Shown: positions 5,419 to 24,396 of the stretch, in pieces
How positions within the stretch are numbered: position 1 is the first letter of the stretch
Layout of the letters: the number at the start of each line of letters is the position of its first letter
DNA from: an uncultured Pelagibacteraceae bacterium
GTDB taxonomy: Bacteria; Pseudomonadota; Alphaproteobacteria; Pelagibacterales; Pelagibacteraceae
Direction of reading: 5' to 3'
Assembly (NCBI GenBank): GCA_902632315.1
Contig: CACPCD010000001.1
Coordinates: 62,001-126,000, forward strand
Length of the DNA stretch: 64,000 nt
Made by a program: the position numbers and the translations under genes
Notes under the pieces: model-generated
What the model saw: the letters and a program-made list of their open reading frames with translations, nothing else
Told to the model about the DNA's origin: nothing
The model's database searches: none

Positions 5419-6765
5419 ATGAGCTCAGAAAACCGCACTTCAGTTCCAAATTCATTAAATGAACATTGGATGCCATTTACGTCTAACAAGGATTTTAAAG
5501 CAAATCCGAGATTAATTACAGAAGCAAAAGGTGTTTACCTAAAAACACATCACGGCAAAACACAAATTGATGCGAGCTCAGGGTTATTTTGTAATCCTTT
5601 AGGACATGGAAGAAAAGAAATTACGGAAGCGGTTACTAAACAATTAGAAACTTTAGATTACGCTCAACCTTTTCAACAAGGTTTTGGAGGTTCATTTGAA
5701 TTAGCAACTAAAATTTCAAAACATACTCCAGGAAATCTTAATAAGATGTTTTATACAATTTGTGGATCTACTGCAGTTGAAACAGCGATCAAAATAGCTG
5801 TTGCTTATCATAGAGCTAAAGGAAATGCACATAGATTTAGATTTGTAGGAAGAGAAAGAGGATACCATGGAATGAACATTGGATGTGTATCAGTTGGGGG
5901 AATGATCAATAATGTAAAAACATTTGCAAGTATCTTAATGCCAGGTGTCCAACATATGAGACACACACATTTACCAGAGCACAAATTCGTAAGTGGGCAA
6001 CCTGAAACTGGCGGAGACTTAGCTAACGATTTAGAGAGAATAGCAAGTAATTTTGGTCCAGAAAATATAGCTGCATGTATTGTTGAACCAATCGCAGGAT
6101 CTACCGGAACACTAGTACCACCAAAAGGTTATTTACAAAAACTTAGAGAAATTTGTGATAAGCATGGAATACTTTTAATTTTTGATGAAGTAATTACAGG
6201 CTGGGGAAGAACAGGATCTTCTTTTGCAGGACATGAATTTGGTGTTACACCAGATATAATGACAATGGCCAAGGCAACAACAAATGGCGTGGTTCCAATG
6301 GGAGTGGTTGCATGTAAAGATGAAATTTACGATGCTGTGATGGATGCATCACCAATGGGTTCAGTAGAACTGTTTCATGGTTATACATATTCAGGAATTC
6401 CAGTCGCTGTAGCAGCCGCATTAGCTGTCCAAGATATTTTTGAAAAAGATGATATTTTTAATAGAGCAAAAAACTTAGCTCCATATTTCCAAAAAGGTTT
6501 ATTTTCTCTTCAAGACCTAGAGTCAGTTGAGAACATTAGAGGTTATGGAATGATGGGTGGAATTGATATGAAAATGAAAGGTAAACCCGGCAAAGCTGGT
6601 TATGAATGTTTCAAATCATGTTATGAAGCTGGTGTCAATTTTAAAGCAACAGGTGATTGTTTAATAATTGCTCCACAATTTATATGTGAGAAAAAACATA
6701 TTGATGAGATTATTGATAAACTACGAACTGGTATCACTAATTATCAAAAAAACCAAAAGAACTAA
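5419..6765 (+). CDS. Class III aminotransferase, omega-amino acid:pyruvate / taurine:pyruvate type
   Basis: This 448-residue PLP enzyme should move an omega-amino group to pyruvate, giving alanine. The PLP lysine is Lys285 (MAKATTNG), Asp256 is in the FDEVITGWGRTG motif, and residues 113-122 hold the phosphate-binding ICGSTAVETA loop. The N-terminal HWMPFTSNKDF block is typical of the beta-alanine:pyruvate and taurine:pyruvate branch. Facing tauABC and followed by alanine dehydrogenase, it most simply deaminates taurine to sulfoacetaldehyde, with Ald regenerating pyruvate. Beta-alanine or another omega-amine remains possible. Neither xsc nor a sulfoacetaldehyde reductase lies in the window. 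Confidence 0.87.
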   Translation: MSSENRTSVPNSLNEHWMPFTSNKDFKANPRLITEAKGVYLKTHHGKTQIDASSGLFCNPLGHGRKEITEAVTKQLETLDYAQPFQQGFGGSFELATKISKHTPGNLNKMFYTICGSTAVETAIKIAVAYHRAKGNAHRFRFVGRERGYHGMNIGCVSVGGMINNVKTFASILMPGVQHMRHTHLPEHKFVSGQPETGGDLANDLERIASNFGPENIAACIVEPIAGSTGTLVPPKGYLQKLREICDKHGILLIFDEVITGWGRTGSSFAGHEFGVTPDIMTMAKATTNGVVPMGVVACKDEIYDAVMDASPMGSVELFHGYTYSGIPVAVAAALAVQDIFEKDDIFNRAKNLAPYFQKGLFSLQDLESVENIRGYGMMGGIDMKMKGKPGKAGYECFKSCYEAGVNFKATGDCLIIAPQFICEKKHIDEIIDKLRTGITNYQKNQKN

Positions 6766-6808
6766 TAATCTTATATTTTTATATCTATATTAATTAAAGA
6801 GAAAGATA

Positions 6809-7927
6809 ATGCGTATAGGTGTACCTAAAGAAATTAAACCTCAAGAAAATAGAATTGGTCTAACACCCGATAGTGTAAAAGCTTTGACTTCAGAGGGGCA
6901 CGAAGTTTTAATTGAAAATAACGGTGGATTTGAAGCTGGTTTTGAAAATGAGCAATACACAAAAGCAGGTGCAAAGATAGTAAATAAAGCTTCAGATATT
7001 TTTAATGATGCTGAAATAATTGTTAAAGTTAAAGAGCCACAGAAAGTAGAGGTGGACATGATAAGAGAAAATCAAATTATTTATACTTATCTTCATTTAG
7101 CTGCTGCAAAAGAGTTAACAGAAGGATTAATAAAATCTAAAAGCATTAATATAGCTTATGAAACTGTTACTGATGATAATGGTAGATTGCCTTTACTAGC
7201 GCCAATGAGTGCAGTTGCAGGACGTATGTCAGTACAAGCTGGGGCACATTGTTTAGAAAAAAATCAAAAGGGTAGAGGTCTTTTATTAGGTGGCGCACCT
7301 GGAGTTACAGGGGGAACAGTTGTAATTTTAGGAGGCGGTGTTGTTGGAGAAAATGCTGCTGTAATTGCTACTGGTATGCAAGCAAAGGTGCATATTGTTG
7401 ATAAGTCGGAGTCAAGATTAAAACAATTAGTCCAGATGTTTGGTGATAAGATCATTCCGCAACAAAGTGATAAGATAGATTTAAATAAATTAGTCGCTGA
7501 AGCAGATTTATTAGTTGGTGGTGTATTAATTCCAGGAGCTGAAGCACCAAAATTAGTTACTAAAGATATGTTAAAATTTATGAAAAGAGGATCTGTGATA
7601 GTCGATGTGGCTATTGATCAAGGAGGTTGTGTTGAGACGAGTAAACCAACAACGCATGGAGATCCTACTTATATTGTAGATGATGTAGTTCATTATTGTG
7701 TTGCCAATATGCCTGGTGGAGTTCCCAGAACTTCAACTTTTGCACTTAATAAGGCAACTCTTCCTTACTTAATAAAATTAGCAAATAAAGGTTACCAAAA
7801 AGCTTTGGGTGAAGATAAAAACTTTTTAGCAGGATTAAATGTTCATAAGGGACATGTGACTTATAAAGCAGTTGCAGATGTATTTGGACATCAATATGTT
7901 GACCCAGGAGAAGCAATCAAAAATTAA
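6809..7927 (+). CDS. ald: Alanine dehydrogenase
   Basis: The 372-residue length matches the family. The N-terminus MRIGVPKEIKPQENRIGLTP is diagnostic. Lys75 (VKVKEP) and His96 (TYLHLAA) fit the catalytic pair, and the NAD-binding GGGVVG lies at 175-180. The enzyme converts L-alanine to pyruvate and ammonia with NAD. Directly after the aminotransferase (43 bp), it completes a transamination cycle in which pyruvate is the recycled acceptor and nitrogen leaves as ammonium. A purine-rich AAAGAGAAAGA lies upstream of the ATG. It is followed after 4 bp by the FAD dehydrogenase gene, so all three are probably one operon. Confidence 0.95.
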   Translation: MRIGVPKEIKPQENRIGLTPDSVKALTSEGHEVLIENNGGFEAGFENEQYTKAGAKIVNKASDIFNDAEIIVKVKEPQKVEVDMIRENQIIYTYLHLAAAKELTEGLIKSKSINIAYETVTDDNGRLPLLAPMSAVAGRMSVQAGAHCLEKNQKGRGLLLGGAPGVTGGTVVILGGGVVGENAAVIATGMQAKVHIVDKSESRLKQLVQMFGDKIIPQQSDKIDLNKLVAEADLLVGGVLIPGAEAPKLVTKDMLKFMKRGSVIVDVAIDQGGCVETSKPTTHGDPTYIVDDVVHYCVANMPGGVPRTSTFALNKATLPYLIKLANKGYQKALGEDKNFLAGLNVHKGHVTYKAVADVFGHQYVDPGEAIKN

Positions 7928-16382: not shown

Positions 16383-16910
16383 TTAATGACCAGGGAATTC
16401 TATTAGATTTTCAACTTTATAGTTTTTGTTAATTAATTTTTCACATCCCCCTAAATCAAATAAATTTATTACAAATATAAAAGCTGAGACCTGACCTTTA
16501 GAAATTTCAATTAGTTTTGCTGCAGCTTCAGCTGTACCACCTGTTGCTATTAAATCATCAATAATTAAAACCGTGTCATTCTTATCAATGGAATCTTTAT
16601 GCACTTCTATAGTCGCTGTACCGTATTCAAGTTCAAAATCTACAGAATGAACATCAGCTGGAAGTTTATCTTTTTTTCTAAGCATTATAAAAGGTTTCTT
16701 TAATATATATGAAACTGCAGAAGCAAAAACAAAACCACGCGACTCAATGGCTGCAATTTTATTAAAATTAAAGTTCTTAGATTTTTCAACAATTTGGTTA
16801 ATTGTTTCTGCAAAAGCTTTTTCATCTTTAATTAATGTAGTTATATCTCTAAATAAAATACCTTTTTTGGGATAATCTGGAATAGATCGAATAAAATTTT
16901 TTAAATTCAT
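16383..16910 (-). CDS. apt: Adenine phosphoribosyltransferase
   Basis: The 175-residue type I phosphoribosyltransferase makes AMP from adenine and PRPP. It has FRDITTLIKD near the N-terminus, the AAIESRGFVFASAV block and the PRPP loop LIIDDLIATGGTA (about residues 119-131). Length is normal. It is divergent from mtnP over 41 bp. MtnP releases adenine, so the pairing lets the cell recover the base straight away. A shared, possibly co-regulated promoter region is likely. Confidence 0.95.
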   Translation of the reverse strand: MNLKNFIRSIPDYPKKGILFRDITTLIKDEKAFAETINQIVEKSKNFNFNKIAAIESRGFVFASAVSYILKKPFIMLRKKDKLPADVHSVDFELEYGTATIEVHKDSIDKNDTVLIIDDLIATGGTAEAAAKLIEISKGQVSAFIFVINLFDLGGCEKLINKNYKVENLIEFPGH

Positions 16911-16951
16911 AATAGCTATTTATTAAAGTATAAATAAATCAAATTTTAAAC

Positions 16952-17824
16952 ATGACAATAAATAAATTAGCAATAATTGGAGGAAGTGGTCTTTATGATG
17001 TTGAGGAGTTTGAAAGCAGAGAATTTCTTGATTTAAATACCCCCTGGGGAAAACCATCTGATCAAATTTTAAAAACAAATTTTAATAACAAAGAGATCTA
17101 TTTCTTACCTAGACATGGCAAGGGACATTTTATACCTCCATCCAAAATTAATTTTAGAGCCAATATTGATGCTCTCAAACAATTAGGGGTAACAGATATT
17201 GTATCAGTATCTGCAGTTGGTTCTTTAAAAGAAGATTTGCCACCAGGGAAATTTGTAATTGTTGATCAATTTATAGACCGAACATTTGCAAGAGAAAAAA
17301 CATTTTTTGACGACGAGATAGTTGCACACGTTTCAATGGCCCACCCAACATCCAGTGGTTTGATGAATGCTTGTGAAGAAGCAATCAAAAAAGAAAAAAT
17401 TGAATATCAAAGAAATGGGACATACGTGGTTATGGAGGGCCCTCAATTCTCAACTCTTGCAGAATCAAATTTATATAGATCATGGAAAGCAGATGTAATC
17501 GGTATGACAAATATGCCAGAAGCAAAATTAGCTAGAGAGGCAGAAATTAGATACGCATCTGTATCAATGGTTACCGATTATGATTGCTGGCATCCAGATC
17601 ATGAAAATGTTGATGTTCAACAGGTGGTAAAAGTTTTATTAGGTAATGCTGCTAAGGCAAAAAATATGATTAAGAACTTAATAGAAAATTTTGAAAATCA
17701 TATTGATCCTAAAGATCCTACAAATAACTGTTTGGATGTGGCAATTATTACTGCACCTGAAAAAAGAACTAAAAAAACTATAGAGAAATTAAAAACAGTT
17801 GCTGGAAGAGTTTTAAATAAATGA
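16952..17824 (+). CDS. mtnP: S-methyl-5'-thioadenosine phosphorylase
   Basis: The 290-residue class I nucleoside phosphorylase cleaves MTA (and possibly 5'-deoxyadenosine) with phosphate to adenine and methylthioribose-1-phosphate. The N-terminal LAIIGGSGLYD block, LPRHGKGHFIPPS, VMEGPQFSTLAES and NMPEAKLAREAEI are characteristic of MtnP. It overlaps mtnA by 4 bp (ATGA). It is the first gene of an operon ending in an aminopropyltransferase fusion, the enzyme type that produces MTA, so substrate supply and removal are encoded together. Confidence 0.95.
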   Translation: MTINKLAIIGGSGLYDVEEFESREFLDLNTPWGKPSDQILKTNFNNKEIYFLPRHGKGHFIPPSKINFRANIDALKQLGVTDIVSVSAVGSLKEDLPPGKFVIVDQFIDRTFAREKTFFDDEIVAHVSMAHPTSSGLMNACEEAIKKEKIEYQRNGTYVVMEGPQFSTLAESNLYRSWKADVIGMTNMPEAKLAREAEIRYASVSMVTDYDCWHPDHENVDVQQVVKVLLGNAAKAKNMIKNLIENFENHIDPKDPTNNCLDVAIITAPEKRTKKTIEKLKTVAGRVLNK

Positions 17825-18891
17825 AAATTGAAGGAAAAGAATATCGAACAATTTGGTTCGAAAATGATCTTGTTAAAATTATTGATCAGACAAAACTTCC
17901 TCACCGATTTTTAATCAAAGATCTTAAAACAGTCAAAGATGCAATTAATGCAATCAAAATAATGGAAGTAAGAGGAGCACCTTTAATAGGAGCAACAGCA
18001 GCTTATGGATTAGTTTTGGCTATTATTGAAAACAACGATCAGTCTTTTTTAAAAAAATCAGCAGAAAATTTAATTAACTCAAGACCAACAGCAATTAATT
18101 TAAAGTGGGCTGTTGAGAGGATGATGAACAAATTATCAGGTGTTAATAGTGATAAAATTTTACATATAGCTAAGAATGAAGCAAAAGAAATTTGTGAGGA
18201 AGATATAAAGTTCTGTAAAAGTATAGGATTAAATGGTCTTAAAATAATTGAGGAAATTTATAATAAAAAAAAGGATACAATAAATATTTTAACTCATTGT
18301 AATGCAGGTTGGTTAGCGACAATTAATTGGGGGACTGCAACTTCTCCAATATATCACGCACACAAAAAAGGTATTCCAGTCCATGTTTGGGCTGACGAAA
18401 CAAGGCCAAGAAATCAAGGAGCTAATTTAACCTCTTACGAATTAAATGAAGAGGGGATTAAAAATACAATCATCGCAGATAATACTGGTGGTATTTTAAT
18501 GCAAAGAGGTGAAGTTGATATATGTATTGTTGGAACTGACAGAACTTTAGCTAATGGAGATGTTTGTAATAAAGTTGGAACTTACTTAAAAGCACTTGCA
18601 GCTCACGATAATAAAATTCCTTTTTATGTAGCATTACCAAGCTCAACAATTGACTGGAATATAAAAAATCATAAAGATATTCCTATAGAAGAGAGAAATT
18701 CAGAAGAATTATCTCATATGGAAGGTTTAGATGAAAAAGGAGATATAAAAAAAATACAAATTTATCCCAATAAAAGTAAAGCAATGAACCTTGCTTTTGA
18801 TGTTACACCTGCAAAATATATAACAGGTTTAATAACTGAAAAAGGTGTATGTAAAGCGTCTTCAGAAGGATTAGAGAAATTATTTAAATGA
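17821..18891 (+). CDS. mtnA: Methylthioribose-1-phosphate isomerase
   Basis: The 356-residue eIF2B-related isomerase turns methylthioribose-1-phosphate into methylthioribulose-1-phosphate. Family blocks include EVRGAPLIGATAAYG, LTHCNAGWLAT with the catalytic cysteine, VWADETRPRNQGANLTSYEL and VGTDRTLANGDVCNKVGTY with the catalytic aspartate. Length fits. It overlaps mtnP upstream and the aldolase gene downstream by 4 bp each (ATGA), so translation is probably coupled. Confidence 0.95.
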   Translation: MKIEGKEYRTIWFENDLVKIIDQTKLPHRFLIKDLKTVKDAINAIKIMEVRGAPLIGATAAYGLVLAIIENNDQSFLKKSAENLINSRPTAINLKWAVERMMNKLSGVNSDKILHIAKNEAKEICEEDIKFCKSIGLNGLKIIEEIYNKKKDTINILTHCNAGWLATINWGTATSPIYHAHKKGIPVHVWADETRPRNQGANLTSYELNEEGIKNTIIADNTGGILMQRGEVDICIVGTDRTLANGDVCNKVGTYLKALAAHDNKIPFYVALPSSTIDWNIKNHKDIPIEERNSEELSHMEGLDEKGDIKKIQIYPNKSKAMNLAFDVTPAKYITGLITEKGVCKASSEGLEKLFK

Positions 18892-19544
18892 AAAATTTAG
18901 ATCAAAGAAATCAAATTATTGAATATTCCTTAAAGCTGAATTCTACAAACCTTTCGCCACTTAGATCAGGCAATATATCTCTAAGATCTAGAGAAAATGG
19001 TAATGAGGGTTATTTAATTACTCCTTCTGGAAAAAAATATGAAACTTTAAAACCAGATGATATTGTTTTTATGGGTTTAAATGAAGAAGTAGATAAAAAC
19101 GACTCAGGTAATAATCCCTCATCTGAATGGAGATTTCACAGAGATATTTATGTTAATAAAAAAGATGCTCAAGCTATTGTCCATGCACATTCTCCACACG
19201 CAACGGCTGTATCTTCACATGGAAAAGCAATTCCTCCGTTTCATTATATGATTGCTTTAGCTGGCGGTGAGGACATAAAATGTGCTGAATACGCTACTTT
19301 TGGAACTGAGGAGTTGTCTAAAAATGTAATAAAAGCTCTACAAGACAGAAGTGCTTGCTTGATGTCTAATCACGGTCAGGTTGCCTTTGGTAAAAATTTA
19401 GAACAAGCTTTTGAACTTGCACAAGAGGTAGAAAATATTTGTCATCAATACACTATTGCTCTAAGGTTAGGACAACCTAAGATTCTTTCATTTGAAGAAA
19501 TGAAAAAAGTTTTAGATAAGGCTAAAAATTATAAAAAAGGGTAA
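18888..19544 (+). CDS. Class II (FucA-like) aldolase, probable methylthioribulose/deoxyribulose-1-phosphate aldolase
   Basis: The 218-residue enzyme keeps every metal and catalytic residue of E. coli fuculose-1-phosphate aldolase at a constant offset of seven: Glu80 (SSEWRFH), His99 and His101 (VHAHSPH) and His162 (SNHGQ). CAEYATFGTEEL and PPFHYMIALAGG are also FucA-type. Placed after mtnP-mtnA, it should split methylthioribulose-1-phosphate into DHAP and a methylthio-aldehyde, as the Ald2 enzymes of the DHAP shunt do. MtnB, the dehydratase of the classical Met salvage route, belongs to the same fold, but the FucA pattern argues for aldol cleavage. Confidence 0.85.
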   Translation: MKNLDQRNQIIEYSLKLNSTNLSPLRSGNISLRSRENGNEGYLITPSGKKYETLKPDDIVFMGLNEEVDKNDSGNNPSSEWRFHRDIYVNKKDAQAIVHAHSPHATAVSSHGKAIPPFHYMIALAGGEDIKCAEYATFGTEELSKNVIKALQDRSACLMSNHGQVAFGKNLEQAFELAQEVENICHQYTIALRLGQPKILSFEEMKKVLDKAKNYKKG

Positions 19545-19545
19545 G

Positions 19546-20586
19546 ATGATTAAAGTTGGGGAGCATATTACTTTAGATATAATTGGTACTTCGAAGGAGT
19601 ATGACCCTTCTGTTTATGAAAAAGTTATCAAGAAAATTGCTGAAGCAGCAGATGTAACTATCTTAAATATTTCTAAATATAAATTTGAACCTCAGGGCTT
19701 TACTATTTTGGCATTATTAGCGGAGAGTCATATTAGTTTTCATACATTCCCTGAAAAGGGAATAATAAGTTTTGATTTTTTTACTTGCGGGAAAATAAGC
19801 CCATCGGTGGCAATTGATATCGTCAAAAAAGAATTTAATCATAAAAGAATTGTAAAAAAGAAATTTAACAGAGATACAAGATCTCTTTATCACGATATTT
19901 ATAGCTCTCCTGGATTACAAAAATCTTATGTCGTTAATGATGTATTAGAAGATTTTAAATCAAAAGTTGGTCAACACATTGAAATTCTTGATTTAGAACA
20001 ATTTGGTAAATCTTTATTTATTGATGGAGAAATTCAAGTAGCAGCTTCAGATGAACATTTATATAGTTCTACGTTTGTTGGTTCAGGTTTAAAATTAAAT
20101 AAAAATAATGAAAAGGCTGCAATAATTGGTGGAGGAGATGGTGGTGTTGCAAGAGAATGTATATCTAAAAAATTTAATTTTATTGATTGGTACGAACTTG
20201 ATCCGGAAGTGGTTGAGATTTGCAATAAACATCTGGGAAATATTGGAAAAAAAGCTACAGAAAAAAATTCTGTTAAATGTGTATGGGGTGATGCTTTTGA
20301 AAGTATCAAAGCTGTAAAAGAAGATACTTATGATCATATATTTGTTGATTTAAATGATGATCAATTTTGTATTGATCTTGCTGCGAAAAATATGGACTCG
20401 CTAGTTAGGATTTTAAAACCAAAAGGAGTAATCACTGCCCAGGTTGGAAGCCAGGATAAAAAACCCCATCAAGTTGAAAATTGGCTGAATGTCTTTCATC
20501 ACCATTTTGGTAATACCAAATTATCTAGGGTTTACGTGCCTAGTTTTGACTGTTCTTGGAATTTTTCATCATCAATAAATCATTAA
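19546..20586 (+). CDS. speD-speE: Fused S-adenosylmethionine decarboxylase - aminopropyltransferase (SpeD-SpeE)
   Basis: This single 346-residue frame joins two enzymes. Residues 1-115 are a prokaryotic AdoMet decarboxylase. Ser61 in LLAESHISFHTFPE is the self-processing residue that becomes pyruvoyl, with Ser43, His66 and Cys81 (FFTCG) as partners. Residues 125-346 are a spermidine-synthase-type domain with GGGDGG (195-200) and YELDP (216-220). The acidic pair Asp268/Asp271 survives, but the usual DSSDPxGP loop reads DLNDDQF. The product would be a triamine and MTA, which the three upstream genes recycle. Acceptor amine is uncertain. The start ATG lies 1 bp after the aldolase stop. Confidence 0.9.
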   Translation: MIKVGEHITLDIIGTSKEYDPSVYEKVIKKIAEAADVTILNISKYKFEPQGFTILALLAESHISFHTFPEKGIISFDFFTCGKISPSVAIDIVKKEFNHKRIVKKKFNRDTRSLYHDIYSSPGLQKSYVVNDVLEDFKSKVGQHIEILDLEQFGKSLFIDGEIQVAASDEHLYSSTFVGSGLKLNKNNEKAAIIGGGDGGVARECISKKFNFIDWYELDPEVVEICNKHLGNIGKKATEKNSVKCVWGDAFESIKAVKEDTYDHIFVDLNDDQFCIDLAAKNMDSLVRILKPKGVITAQVGSQDKKPHQVENWLNVFHHHFGNTKLSRVYVPSFDCSWNFSSSINH

Positions 20587-20647: not shown

Positions 20648-21475
20648 ATGAATATATTCAAAAAATTTATTTTTTCAGTTTTACTTTCTTTATTAGTAAT
20701 AGGGAATGCAAATGCTGATAAAATAAGAATAGGAACAGAAGGCGCTTACCCTCCATGGAACTCAAAAGATGAGTCTGGTAAATTAATCGGATTTGAAGTG
20801 GAGTTAGCTTACACATTGTGCAGATATATTGGACAACAGTGTACGATAGTGGAACAAGATTGGGATGGAATGATACCAGCACTAATTATGAGAAAGTTTG
20901 ATGCAATAATGGCAGGAATGTCAATTACAGCAGAAAGACAAAAGGCAATTAATTTTTCTCAGGGTTATGCTGATGAAGTTGCATCTTTAGCTGTCATGAA
21001 AGGTTCAAGTTTAGAGGGTTTAGATACTCCAGCTGGAATTAATCTTACTAAACCAAATGCAGCTGCAAAAAAAGCATTAAAAACTCTTACAGCGGCACTA
21101 GCAGGTAAAACTGTTTGTGTACAAACTGCAACAATTCACCAAAACTTTTTAGATTCAGGTGATGTTGGAAAAGTAAATGTAAGAACATATAAAACACAAG
21201 ACGAAGTAAACTTAGATTTGGCTTCAGGAAGATGTGATGCTGCATTAGCTGCTGCGGTAGCATTTAGCGATTATGCAGAAAAATCTGGTAAACCTGTTGT
21301 GTTAACAGGCCCAACTTTTTCAGGTGGTGCATTCGGAAACGGTGTTGGAGTTGGTATTAGAAAAGATGATACTGAACTTTTGAAAAAGTTTAATGCTGCA
21401 ATCAATAAAGCAAGAAAGAACGGAGATATTAGTAGAATAGCTACTAAATGGTTCGGTTTCGACGCTTCTATGTAA
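20648..21475 (+). CDS. Amino-acid ABC transporter periplasmic binding protein (Lys/Arg/Orn/octopine type)
   Basis: The 275-residue protein has a signal peptide (residues 1-23, cut near NANADK). The mature part starts IRIGTEGAYPPWN and includes LIGFEVELAYTLC, DWDGMIPALIMRKFDAIMAGMSIT and the R-x-x-x-INFSQGYA segment, all typical of HisJ/ArgT/OccT binding proteins for cationic amino acids or opines. AAAGGAGAG lies 6 nt upstream as a strong ribosome-binding site. A perfect hairpin follows the stop before the permease genes. The exact ligand is not determined; a basic amino acid or polyamine precursor would suit the preceding operon. Confidence 0.9.
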   Translation: MNIFKKFIFSVLLSLLVIGNANADKIRIGTEGAYPPWNSKDESGKLIGFEVELAYTLCRYIGQQCTIVEQDWDGMIPALIMRKFDAIMAGMSITAERQKAINFSQGYADEVASLAVMKGSSLEGLDTPAGINLTKPNAAAKKALKTLTAALAGKTVCVQTATIHQNFLDSGDVGKVNVRTYKTQDEVNLDLASGRCDAALAAAVAFSDYAEKSGKPVVLTGPTFSGGAFGNGVGVGIRKDDTELLKKFNAAINKARKNGDISRIATKWFGFDASM

Positions 21476-21489
21476 TTAAATTTTAGATT

Positions 21490-21514
21490 TGGCGACTATC
21501 ATGTATAGTCGCCA
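21490..21514 (+). promoter_or_regulatory. Intercistronic stem-loop between binding-protein and permease genes
   Basis: TGGCGACTAT (21490-21499) and ATAGTCGCCA (21505-21514) are exact inverse complements around a 5-nt loop, CATGT. No U-run follows, so it is not a standard terminator. In binding-protein operons such hairpins commonly stabilise the upstream mRNA and lower downstream expression. It starts 14 bp after the stop codon and ends 6 bp before the permease ATG, so it may also hide that ribosome-binding site. Confidence 0.8.
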
Positions 21515-21520
21515 GTCTGT

Positions 21521-22213
21521 ATGGAACTTCTAGCATTTGGTGATACTGGTTGGGGAGACGAGTTATTCCGAGCCACATTAATGACGATAGCTGTATCAGT
21601 TACAGCAATGTTGATAGGTTTTAGTTTTGCTGCAATTTTTACCCCATTAAAATTATCTAAATTTAAATCGTTAAACTTAATCGCAAATATCTACACAACA
21701 GTAATTAGAGGTGTACCGGAACTTCTTGTGATTTACCTTTTCTTTTTTGGAGGGAGTGGAGCAATTATGTTTGTAGCTTCAATGTTTGGTTATAATGATT
21801 ATATAGAGATCAATGCGTTTGTTACTGGTTCATTCGCTATTGGAATTATTTCAGGCGCTTATTCTACAGAAGTTTTTAGAGGGGCAATTCAATCAATAGA
21901 CAAAGGTCAATTTGAGGCTGCTAAAGTTTTAGGATTCAATAAATTTAAACAATTTTATAAAATCATTCTTCCCCAAATGCTAAGACTTGCAATCCCAAAT
22001 TTAAGTAACGTTTGGCAAATCACACTTAAAGATACATCTTTAATTTCTGTAACAGGCTTAGTTGAAATAATGAGACAATCATATATCGCAGCTGGATCTA
22101 CAAGAGACCCCTTATTCTTTTATTCTTTTGCAGCAGTTTTATATCTGTTGCTGACATTCTTAAGTATGAAATTGATAAACAAATTAGAAGTTAAGTATAG
22201 CAGGGGGTATTAA
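21521..22213 (+). CDS. Amino-acid ABC transporter permease, subunit 1 (HisQ-like)
   Basis: The 230-residue inner-membrane protein has about five membrane helices. The HisMQ-type sequence TVIRGVPELLVIYLFFFGG lies near residues 62-80, and the EAA loop EAAKVLGFNKFKQFYKIILP lies near 129-148. Together with the next permease it would form the heterodimeric channel for the upstream binding protein. Its ATG follows the hairpin by 6 bp and I see no clear Shine-Dalgarno outside the stem. It overlaps the next gene by 1 bp (TAATG). Confidence 0.92.
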   Translation: MELLAFGDTGWGDELFRATLMTIAVSVTAMLIGFSFAAIFTPLKLSKFKSLNLIANIYTTVIRGVPELLVIYLFFFGGSGAIMFVASMFGYNDYIEINAFVTGSFAIGIISGAYSTEVFRGAIQSIDKGQFEAAKVLGFNKFKQFYKIILPQMLRLAIPNLSNVWQITLKDTSLISVTGLVEIMRQSYIAAGSTRDPLFFYSFAAVLYLLLTFLSMKLINKLEVKYSRGY

Positions 22214-22887
22214 TGGATTTTGAATTAATGATAAATAGTTTTCCAAAGTTACTAAATGCTGCTGTAGTAACTTTAAAACTTTTATCAGTGTCTTTAATTG
22301 TAGGATTATTTATTGGACTATTATTTGCAATTTTAAGATTAAATAAAAACGTTTTTATTAATAAGTTTGCTTATGTATATTCATACATTTTCAGAGGAAC
22401 TCCATTATTAGTACAAATATTCATTATTTATTTTGGTCTAGGTCAAATTGAGTCTATAAGATATTCATTTTTATGGGTGATTTTGAAAGAACCTTATTGG
22501 TGTGCAATAATTGCCTTTGCACTAAATACTGGTGCTTATACATCTGAAATTTTAAGATCAGCTTTTCAAACAATCAAACCTGGCATAGTTGAAGCCGGGC
22601 GAAGTCTAGGTATATCAAGCAAAGTTATATTTTATAAAATTCAAATTCCAATAGCTATTAGACAGTCATTACCAGCATATGGAAATGAAATTATTTTAAT
22701 GATGAAAGGAACTTCGTTAGCAAGCACAGTCACTTTAATGGACTTAACTGGTGTTGCAAAATATATTATTTCTACAACTTTTAAACCAATAGAAGTATTT
22801 ATTGTAGCTGGTGGTATTTATTTATTTATGACTTTCATAATACATAATGTGATTAAATTTTTAGAGAAAAAATATAGTTTCAATTGA
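22213..22887 (+). CDS. Amino-acid ABC transporter permease, subunit 2 (HisM-like)
   Basis: The 224-residue partner permease has the FRGTPLLVQIFIIYFGLGQ block and the EAA loop EAGRSLGISSKVIFYKIQIP. It also contains the NTGAYTSEILRSAFQ stretch typical of polar amino-acid permeases. An AGGGGG lies just before the start. The expected ATPase gene (HisP/OccP-like) does not follow; the next gene encodes a small secreted protein and the strand then turns. The transporter must borrow an ATPase encoded elsewhere. Confidence 0.92.
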   Translation: MDFELMINSFPKLLNAAVVTLKLLSVSLIVGLFIGLLFAILRLNKNVFINKFAYVYSYIFRGTPLLVQIFIIYFGLGQIESIRYSFLWVILKEPYWCAIIAFALNTGAYTSEILRSAFQTIKPGIVEAGRSLGISSKVIFYKIQIPIAIRQSLPAYGNEIILMMKGTSLASTVTLMDLTGVAKYIISTTFKPIEVFIVAGGIYLFMTFIIHNVIKFLEKKYSFN

Positions 22888-23244: not shown

Positions 23245-24396
23245 CTATAAAATAATTAAATCTAATTTTTGTTTGCCTAGCCTTTTATTACCCTCGTCGG
23301 TGACTAAGTAGGTTTCACCCAAATTCATTGCTAGTTGGTTTTCTGAGTCCATTAAAATCATATGCATAAAGAAGACATTTCCAGGTTCAATGACGTATGG
23401 ATTACCGGTGTAAAGCATTGGCCAATCCATCCAATTTGGAGAGAATGTAGTACCTAATGAATAACCACATGCATTCATTCTTGCTTTATTAAAACCGAGA
23501 TCATCAAAAGTTTTTGCATGAGCATCAAAAACTTCTCCAATTTTATTTCCAGGTTTAAGTTTATTTTCACAATTCATTAATGCATCAACACAAGCTTCAT
23601 GCATTTTATAATGTTTAGGATCTGCTTTACCAATAGGAATAGTTCTAAACATTGCTGAATGATAATGTCTATAAGTTCCAGCCCATTCTACAGTTAACTG
23701 ATCTTGATTATTTAAAATTTGTTTTTCTGCTTGATAACGACAAAGAAGAGCATTTTTTCCTGAACCAATAATAAATTCATTTGCAGGATAATCTCCACCT
23801 CCCTCAAATATAACTCTATTCATTTCAGCTAATATCTTAGATTCACTTACACCCGCTTTTGCATGTTTCCATACTTCATCCAAAGCTTTATCAGCAAGCT
23901 CAGCAGCTTTTTTTACATATACAATTTCCTCTTTAGATTTAACTACTCTTAACTTTGTTATTAATTCTGATTTATCTTCTACATTACAATAATTCTCTAA
24001 AGATTTATTAAGTCGAAGTGCATTACGTCCGGTTAAACCATAAGCTTCATATTCTATACCTAATTTTTTTCCTTTAAGGTTTAGTTCATTTAAAATAATT
24101 TTAAGATTATCAGTTGGGTTTGATCCATCTTTATCAACCCAAATTCTGATATCTTCTATATTAGATGTATTTTGAGCCTGCCTTAAATCAGGAGCCCTAG
24201 TAAGGAGTATTAAGTTTCCATTTTTATCTAAGATTAATGTTTGAAAAAAAACATATCCAAAGGTGTCATATCCTGTTAACCAATACATAGACTCTTGCCT
24301 AAACATTAAAAGAGCATCTATATTTTGCTCTTTCATTGAATTTAAAACTTTAGACTTTCTTAATTTAAATTCTTCCTCTGAAAAATGAAGTCCCAT
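23245..24396 (-). CDS. M24-fold hydrolase lacking metal ligands (ectoine hydrolase/creatinase-like)
   Basis: The 383-residue protein has the creatinase N-terminal domain (1-150) and the pita-bread M24 domain (155-375). Of the five metal ligands of Xaa-Pro peptidases only the two glutamates remain (Glu337 in VIEPG, Glu361 in ETYLV). The first Asp position reads Glu237 (VEWAG), the second falls at Ala248 (YHSAMFRT) and the histidine position reads Tyr312 (GYSLG). Such loss is known in metal-independent members such as creatinase and ectoine hydrolase (DoeA/EutD), so a small C-N bond hydrolase is more likely than a peptidase. No other ectoine genes are nearby. Confidence 0.8.
   Translation of the reverse strand: MGLHFSEEEFKLRKSKVLNSMKEQNIDALLMFRQESMYWLTGYDTFGYVFFQTLILDKNGNLILLTRAPDLRQAQNTSNIEDIRIWVDKDGSNPTDNLKIILNELNLKGKKLGIEYEAYGLTGRNALRLNKSLENYCNVEDKSELITKLRVVKSKEEIVYVKKAAELADKALDEVWKHAKAGVSESKILAEMNRVIFEGGGDYPANEFIIGSGKNALLCRYQAEKQILNNQDQLTVEWAGTYRHYHSAMFRTIPIGKADPKHYKMHEACVDALMNCENKLKPGNKIGEVFDAHAKTFDDLGFNKARMNACGYSLGTTFSPNWMDWPMLYTGNPYVIEPGNVFFMHMILMDSENQLAMNLGETYLVTDEGNKRLGKQKLDLIIL

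Follow-up and report, generated by a model that had tools for sequence, protein, structure and literature searches.

The SAR11 bacteria are among the most abundant heterotrophs of the ocean, and their sulfur economy is a long-standing question. The closest described relative of the system reported here is the dihydroxyacetone phosphate (DHAP) shunt, a known pathway that converts 5'-methylthioadenosine (MTA) to adenine, DHAP, and 2-methylthioacetaldehyde. In Rhodospirillum rubrum and Rhodopseudomonas palustris, the shunt consists of MtnP, MtnA, and Ald2, and in extraintestinal Escherichia coli, it is encoded by mtnK-mtnA-ald2. The carriers of the three shunt enzymes are mostly terrestrial in the available portion of PMC5893883, and a SpeD-SpeE fusion of SAR11 is already known from the accessible part of PMC8437039. 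The present analysis concerns a five-gene locus around such a fusion gene (speDE) in a 64,000-nucleotide stretch of DNA (the window; contig CACPCD010000001.1, positions 62,001 to 126,000) from an uncultured Pelagibacteraceae bacterium. The locus encodes the same three enzyme families as the R. rubrum and R. palustris shunt in the same predicted reaction order, shares with these alphaproteobacteria the use of MtnP rather than MtnN and MtnK, and adds a presumed marine group to the known carriers. The DHAP shunt is the best reading of the predicted operon, and we consider it quite probable that the operon joins spermidine synthesis to disposal of the by-product by this route and that the disposal genes occupy a slot exchangeable between three states across the family.

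Layout and predicted functions of the speDE operon

The locus at positions 16383 to 20586, a divergent apt followed by mtnP-mtnA-aldolase-speDE, contains no internal stop codons (Table 1). mtnP and mtnA overlap by 4 bp, as do mtnA and the aldolase gene, while the aldolase gene and speDE are separated by 1 bp and apt and mtnP by 41 bp, and this layout matches the original prediction exactly, coordinates included. The window has a GC content of 30%, and its source genome comprises 916,519 bases in 41 contigs and is 82.6% complete. Both domains of the fusion lie in one frame, with PF02675 at residues 7 to 109 and PF01564 at residues 170 to 340 (88.3 bits against a cut-off of 22.9), and the SpeE part carries a GGGDGG motif and falls short of the stand-alone SpeE model TIGR00417 (100.1 bits, with 249.55 needed). 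The Glu-Ser in LLAESHISFHTFPE (ESHISFH starts at residue 60) is the putative SpeD processing site. No riboswitch in the window, of the SAM-related type or any other, reached the gathering score of its Rfam family; only a tRNA did so.

TABLE 1 Features of the speDE locus, with positions in the window and the model match or other basis for each
Feature	Position	Strand	Basis
apt, adenine phosphoribosyltransferase	16383..16910	-	TIGR01090, 196.9 bits (cut-off 185.85)
Divergent intergenic region, 41 bp	16911..16951		Gene coordinates
mtnP, S-methyl-5'-thioadenosine phosphorylase	16952..17824	+	NF006492, 448.9 bits (cut-off 437)
mtnA, S-methyl-5-thioribose-1-phosphate isomerase	17821..18891	+	TIGR00512, 421.2 bits (cut-off 279)
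Class II (FucA/Ald2-type) aldolase, proposed 5-methylthioribulose-1-phosphate aldolase	18888..19544	+	PF00596, 180.5 bits (cut-off 22.2)
speD-speE fusion (S-adenosylmethionine [AdoMet] decarboxylase plus aminopropyltransferase), presumed MTA source	19546..20586	+	SpeD model TIGR03330, 95.2 bits (cut-off 75.65)

The reactions, substrates, and products that follow, like co-transcription of the genes, are predicted from sequence. SpeDE would convert AdoMet and a diamine to a polyamine and MTA, MtnP would cleave MTA by phosphorolysis to adenine and methylthioribose-1-phosphate, and the product of the divergent apt would return adenine to AMP. MtnA would isomerize methylthioribose-1-phosphate to methylthioribulose-1-phosphate, which the FucA-type aldolase would split into DHAP and 2-(methylthio)acetaldehyde. 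The same enzymes probably also process 5'-deoxyadenosine. Two features that place the locus in the shunt were found, namely, a phosphorylase gene that exceeds the MtnP cut-off and clustering of mtnA with the aldolase gene, through the 4-bp overlap in the window and through linkage across the family. The proposal that an MTA-making fusion is genetically tied to MtnP, MtnA, a class II aldolase of a predicted DHAP-shunt route, and adenine recovery by Apt is supported by these data. The further description of the locus as a self-contained module is not fully borne out: putrescine supply and aldehyde handling lie outside the module. According to the accessible part of PMC8437039, the SAR11 spermidine synthase is proposed to work in reverse, a reaction that would presumably need the MTA that the neighboring genes are predicted to destroy.

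Absence of classical methionine salvage

The locus does not belong to the universal methionine salvage pathway (MtnB, MtnC, and MtnD). As the original prediction had it for this locus, the classical genes are missing: mtnB (TIGR03328), mtnC (TIGR01691), and mtnD (PF03079) each exceeded the cut-off in none of the 147 family genomes searched, the incomplete source genome among them, while the same searches passed in 2, 1, and 2 of 14 control genomes, respectively. Weak matches below the cut-offs exist for mtnD in 3 genomes, mtnC in 89, and mtnB in 84; many of the mtnB matches have the coordinates of the aldolase gene itself, and the highest-scoring one (G109, 88.3 bits) belongs to a different class II gene.

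These results bear on the possibility that the third enzyme is MtnB, the methylthioribulose-1-phosphate dehydratase of a classical or degenerate salvage pathway. MtnB is a member of the same class II aldolase family, according to the part of PMC6302742 at hand, and would use the product of MtnA. However, the window aldolase reaches only 64.9 bits with the MtnB equivalog TIGR03328 (cut-off 137.05) and up to 199 bits with FucA-type models, mtnC and mtnD exceed their cut-offs in none of the 147 genomes, and genomes without the window-type aldolase carry another aldolase in that position. We therefore regard an MtnB as very improbable, and cleavage of the sugar phosphate by an aldolase is the reading followed below.

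The class II aldolase

Among solved structures, the aldolase matches FucA chains best (E value of 1.7e-47), followed by DrdA (PDB 6btd), a 5-deoxyribulose-1-phosphate aldolase, at 1.1e-40. The metal site, Glu80, His99, His101, and His162, is intact and was found where the original prediction had placed it, each residue at the E. coli FucA position plus 7, and the Glu/His/His/His set is invariant in 15 aligned sequences, including E. coli FucA and Ald2 of E. coli S88. The gene is the only PF00596 match in the source genome. In a 27-row tree, in which four rows have an odd letter composition, a single group (98/94) holds the 14 SAR11-type copies and is nearest to the mtnA-adjoining aldolases of other Alphaproteobacteria, and E. 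coli FucA and Ald2 pair together (100/99). Among 152 sampled alphaproteobacterial genomes, mtnA exceeded the cut-off in 68, and a class II aldolase gene lies within 3 kb of mtnA in at least 31 of these, the window's own included, a lower bound, with the rows chosen by eye. Within the family, the aldolase gene lies upstream of speDE on the same strand in all 67 genomes in which both were found, at 4 to 164 bp; these distances were taken between matched stretches with the stop codon excluded, so that 4 bp corresponds to the 1-bp gap of the window. Such constancy indicates that the arrangement is not due to chance.

An L-fuculose-phosphate aldolase of sugar catabolism, placed here by chance, would be consistent with the name of the top-scoring model (L-fuculose-phosphate aldolase, 199.1 bits) and with a metal site identical to that of FucA. 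Every FucA model nevertheless remains below its cut-off, the gene overlaps mtnA by 4 bp and keeps its 67/67 linkage to speDE, it is excluded by the alternative aldolase described below, and in the tree the SAR11 copies join the mtnA-linked aldolases of Alphaproteobacteria and not E. coli FucA, all of which makes a fuculose enzyme hardly credible.

Three exchangeable states beside speDE

The family sample consisted of 147 genomes, many of them incomplete, and the whole study is one of comparative genomics. mtnA was detected in 109 of these genomes (over the cut-off in 103) and the aldolase, at more than 100 bits, in 68, three copies being truncated at contig ends and one (G047) interrupted by a stop codon. 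The mtnA genomes without this aldolase led to a second enzyme of about 677 residues, in which a class II aldolase is joined to a short-chain dehydrogenase (SDR). This fusion, here called aldSDR (NF006192, 901.7 bits; cut-off, 639), was detected in 43 genomes with scores of at least 297 bits. The aldolase and aldSDR never occur together (0/147), and the 109 mtnA genomes divide into 66 with the aldolase, 41 with aldSDR, and 2 with neither, namely, G092, in which mtnA is cut by a contig end, and G100, which is 64% complete. In genomes with speDE and without mtnA, a third state was found, in which a gene of about 175 residues from the nucleoside phosphorylase/nucleosidase family lies between apt and speDE (PF01048, 57.3 bits, over the cut-off; best PDB match, 2.6e-9). 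It is present in 9 of the 147 genomes, and its weak matches to MTA/S-adenosylhomocysteine (SAH) nucleosidases make that activity a reasonable assignment, short of a firm name.

The 116 genomes with speDE comprise 67 with the aldolase only, 39 with aldSDR only, 6 with the nucleosidase-like gene only, 1 with aldSDR and a nucleosidase relative (G010, which has 8% contamination and carries the two on different contigs), and 3 with none. Of the latter, G032 and G124 have contigs that begin just before or inside speDE. In the third, G048 (locus L096), mtnP and a broken C-terminal aldolase remnant lie beside speDE with no mtnA match, perhaps a decayed state between modules. aldSDR adjoins speDE on the opposite strand at 84 to 479 bp in all 40 genomes with both, and the nucleosidase-like gene lies on the same strand at 56 to 124 bp in all six cases in which it shares one contig with speDE. 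apt adjoins the slot in all three states, the exception seen being G003, in which three other genes separate apt and mtnP. Among the 53 genomes with a completeness of 90% or more and a contamination of 5% or less, all 39 with mtnA also have speDE, and none of the five without speDE has mtnA (P = 7e-4); in the whole sample, 103 genomes have both genes, 6 mtnA only, 13 speDE only, and 25 neither. A quick speDE tree, built from 65 proteins of fetched loci (63 with an assigned state) that are not a random sample, requires at least seven changes among the three states over its 63 rows, with the proviso that speDE itself could recombine. The SAR11-type spermidine gene thus almost always (in 113 of 116 genomes) adjoins genes predicted to dispose of a toxic sulfur by-product, and three kits are swapped by lineage.

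In the first state, that of the window, mtnP-mtnA-aldolase lies between apt and speDE. In the second, mtnP-mtnA is accompanied by aldSDR on the opposite strand, which probably splits the same sugar phosphate and oxidizes the aldehyde with its NAD-type dehydrogenase, by analogy with the distant relative RhaEW. In the third, the nucleosidase-like gene stands alone and would release adenine and methylthioribose, and without mtnA the only known fate of this sugar is export. MTA removal and adenine recovery would be common to all three, which suggests that these, together with DHAP in the window, are the conserved purpose, and not the saving of sulfur. The slot amounts to a natural experiment, in which one gene that differs among close relatives would determine which product the cell releases in the course of spermidine synthesis.

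This distribution bears on the idea, put forward in the original prediction, that the methylthio group is kept to serve a need for sulfur. SAR11 bacteria are held to need reduced sulfur, which counts in its favor. In R. palustris, moreover, MtnP, MtnA, and Ald2 allow methanethiol to be released from MTA under aerobic conditions, according to PMC5893883. However, in related genomes that lack mtnA, the nucleosidase-like gene replaces the route, and such lineages would keep only adenine and discard methylthioribose; in the second state, the fused dehydrogenase would, if RhaEW is a guide, oxidize the aldehyde. In E. coli, the sulfur that passes through this shunt ends up in 2-methylthioethanol and is lost, as stated in PMC10986504, and the operon contains no methanethiol-releasing gene, a search that did not extend to the rest of the genome. 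Sulfur saving is not supported by these observations, and we consider it unlikely.

Alternatively, the main role may be the clearance of 5'-deoxyadenosine from radical-SAM enzymes, with 5-deoxyribulose-1-phosphate as the physiological substrate and MTA as a secondary one. E. coli Ald2 takes both substrates (PMC10986504, in part), DrdA serves 5-deoxyribulose-1-phosphate and tolerates various aldehydes (PMC6079011, in part), and relatives of the nucleosidase are present in two genomes in which speDE was not detected. The fixed position of the genes next to speDE (67/67) argues against this role, as does the lack of mtnA in all five high-quality genomes without speDE, in which radical-SAM chemistry presumably persists, and deoxyadenosine clearance is judged quite unlikely to be the main function. 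Disposal of MTA from spermidine synthesis remains the preferred reading.

Several other genes were seen at or near the slot. In L018, L025, L037, L065, L069, and L109, unrelated genes (alpha/beta hydrolase-like, tautomerase-like, PhyH, and others) interrupt the series of mtnP, mtnA, and the gene for the aldolase or for aldSDR, and the slot seems prone to gene insertion. In several genomes of genus g2, an enoyl-CoA hydratase gene (PRK08139 type) and a CoA_binding_2 gene lie directly 3' of mtnA, with a 4-bp overlap where read (L062, positions 6033 to 7288, and L051, L053, L058, L070, L071, L073, and L074), and relatives of the pair lie several kilobases from apt in other genera (L064, L075, L076, and L098). 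The pair was considered as a replacement for the aldolase and rejected, since it also occurs away from mtnA and it is aldSDR that tracks the missing aldolase. An amino acid-type ABC transporter (binding protein and two permeases) lies 3' of speDE in the window (positions 20648 to 22887) and in many genomes of any disposal state (L062 to L069, L078, L079, and L090 to L093), and a nitrilase/omega-amidase-like gene is also often found downstream of speDE. At positions 23245 to 24396, the window encodes a creatinase/prolidase-like M24 metallopeptidase that resembles ectoine hydrolase and, weakly, DMSP lyase DddP models, far under the cut-offs.

The fused aldolase-dehydrogenase outside the family

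In the alphaproteobacterial sample, aldSDR (at least 44% identity) was found in 25 of 152 genomes. mtnA is present in 23 of these 25, compared with 47 of the remaining 127 (P = 2.5e-7). aldSDR is absent from all 31 genomes with an mtnA-linked stand-alone aldolase. Fourteen of the aldSDR genomes carry the gene on one contig with mtnA, 12 of them within 2 kb and on the same strand, and gene maps such as those of L124 and L117 show mtnP-apt-mtnA-aldSDR or mtnP-mtnA-aldSDR in one direction. L136 and L138 have an equivalent layout with a stand-alone aldolase in place of aldSDR. For the named loci, of which the 80 best among 576 confirmed ones were used, the fetched flanks include mtnA in 31 cases, in 30 of them on the strand of aldSDR. 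Among plasmid neighborhoods (10 of 491 records with a match), mtnK and/or mtnA lies near aldSDR in 8 of 10, 7 of them annotated with mtnK and 1, unannotated, encoding mtnA. The typical order on rhizobial plasmids is regulator, aldSDR, sugar ABC transporter, mtnK, and mtnA. Four such clusters (L242 to L244 and L246) encode a sugar-binding regulator, aldSDR, a sugar ABC importer, MtnK, MtnA, and two transketolase-like open reading frames, and they look like clusters for breaking down methylthioribose or 5-deoxyribose taken up by the cell, with an additional transketolase-like step.

The candidate metal site of aldSDR (E125, H139, H141, and H200) and the SDR residues S563, Y576, and K580 are invariant in 12 sequences, and aldSDR also keeps D462, an aspartate typical of NAD-dependent short-chain dehydrogenases. 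In a quick tree, in which several rows have long branches or an odd letter composition, RhaEW and one Bacillota protein are set apart on a 100% branch from all mtn-linked members, among which the SAR11-type copies fall. Five divergent members of the class show 31 to 32% identity, and one genome among them has mtnA. Aldolase-only relatives also exist: in Alloyangia pacifica (L250), a protein matching residues 1 to 421 without the dehydrogenase is encoded beside an lsr-type autoinducer-2 ABC transporter, and partial matches of this type occur in Sinorhizobium meliloti (hits H53 to H57 cover this set).

The mtn-linked aldSDR may be a methylthioribulose-1-phosphate aldolase and 2-(methylthio)acetaldehyde dehydrogenase in a single chain that yields DHAP and (methylthio)acetate, an oxidative branch of the DHAP shunt as opposed to the reductive branch to 2-(methylthio)ethanol, with SAR11-like lineages repeatedly exchanging aldSDR, aldolase, and nucleosidase at one slot; for this extended proposal, the balance is even. 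If it is true, the state of the slot would set whether a methylthio-acid, a methylthio-alcohol, or methylthioribose is exported into seawater. The proposal also gives a testable function to a widespread protein labeled only "bifunctional aldolase/short-chain dehydrogenase" in databases.

Several observations weigh against these readings. The aldolase misses all NCBIfam FucA cut-offs (NF005302, 199.1 of 264 bits; NF005984, 191.4 of 264; TIGR01086, 172.7 of 400.25), and none of the curated models names it a methylthioribulose-phosphate aldolase. Reading the substrate from residues also fails: the four metal-site residues, on which the original prediction had based its assignment, do mark an aldolase, but E. 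coli FucA and Ald2, which are sister sequences, have the same site, so the substrate assignment draws on genomic context. G100 has mtnA with neither aldolase nor aldSDR for no evident reason. The nucleosidase-like gene scores 95.8 bits with NF004168, below the cut-off of 129, and its relatives in two genomes (G005 and G028) of a genus without detected speDE indicate that the third state may also serve 5'-deoxyadenosine or SAH. In SAR11, aldSDR runs against mtnA and speDE and is thus outside their operon. Among the 46 named loci of at least 13.5 kb, mtnA or mtnP lies within 6 kb of aldSDR in 19, the majority being unlinked. Two plasmid relatives at about 48% identity (L240 and L247) have no mtn genes in their clusters, yet the tree places them on the side of the mtn-linked copies, so that the substrate cannot be read from membership in the family alone. 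The view that every aldSDR is an MTA enzyme was dropped, as 2 of the 10 plasmid neighborhoods lack mtn genes. L247 has glycerol-phosphate dehydrogenase and sugar ABC genes as neighbors, and L240 has alcohol dehydrogenase and SDR genes. This subgroup probably acts on another sugar phosphate.

Comparison with known systems

No description of the SAR11 aldolase operon, its exchange, or a role of aldSDR in MTA metabolism was found in the open-license literature searched, and the term "bifunctional aldolase" had no occurrence among the best-listed open-license papers, neither of which establishes absence from print. The operon, the exchange, and the aldSDR role are likewise not described in the available portions of PMC8437039, PMC6302742, PMC2211319, PMC12632272, PMC9992855, PMC6079011, PMC5893883, and PMC11698098. 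mtnP and mtnA occur once each in PMC8437039, outside the main text, and the SAR11 presence of both may therefore already be in print. What is new here is the exchangeable slot with the fused aldSDR, an enzyme that seems not to have been tied to MTA disposal before.

Unlike the shunt of R. rubrum and R. palustris, the route in the window is joined by overlaps to a SpeD-SpeE gene, is accompanied by a divergent apt, and lies in a streamlined genome of 30% GC, and the SAR11-type family swaps the aldolase for aldSDR or a nucleosidase. The conversion of the aldehyde to methylthioethanol and then to methanethiol is a feature of R. palustris. The extraintestinal E. coli shunt has the same isomerase and aldolase families and identical metal-site residues; it differs in using Pfs and MtnK and in serving 5-deoxypentoses and 5'-deoxynucleosides as carbon sources, according to the text at hand of PMC10986504, and the alphaproteobacterial aldolases are more distant from its Ald2 than E. 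coli FucA is. DrdA of Bacillus thuringiensis shares the family and the active-site glutamate (PMC6079011, available part), whereas its gene belongs to a kinase-isomerase-aldolase cluster for 5-deoxyribose that is not next to polyamine genes.

RhaEW, a rhamnulose-1-phosphate aldolase and lactaldehyde dehydrogenase, has the same architecture of class II aldolase and short-chain dehydrogenase as aldSDR, and in the part of PMC3870299 consulted, its NAD+-dependent oxidation was measured and it was inactive with NADH. aldSDR shares only 31 to 32% identity with RhaEW-type proteins, misses their model TIGR02632 (441 bits against 567.75), and is separated from them on the 100% branch; it lies in mtn and not rha clusters, whereas the RhaEW control adjoins rhaI and the rhamnose transporter gene rhaS. 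The AdoMet decarboxylase-spermidine synthase fusion of Candidatus Pelagibacter ubique, which Green et al. in 2011 reportedly found to be functional, is the same kind of fused protein as the SpeDE of the window. For that fusion, the available parts of the sources describe neither the MTA-disposal neighbors nor their exchange, both of which distinguish the locus presented here.

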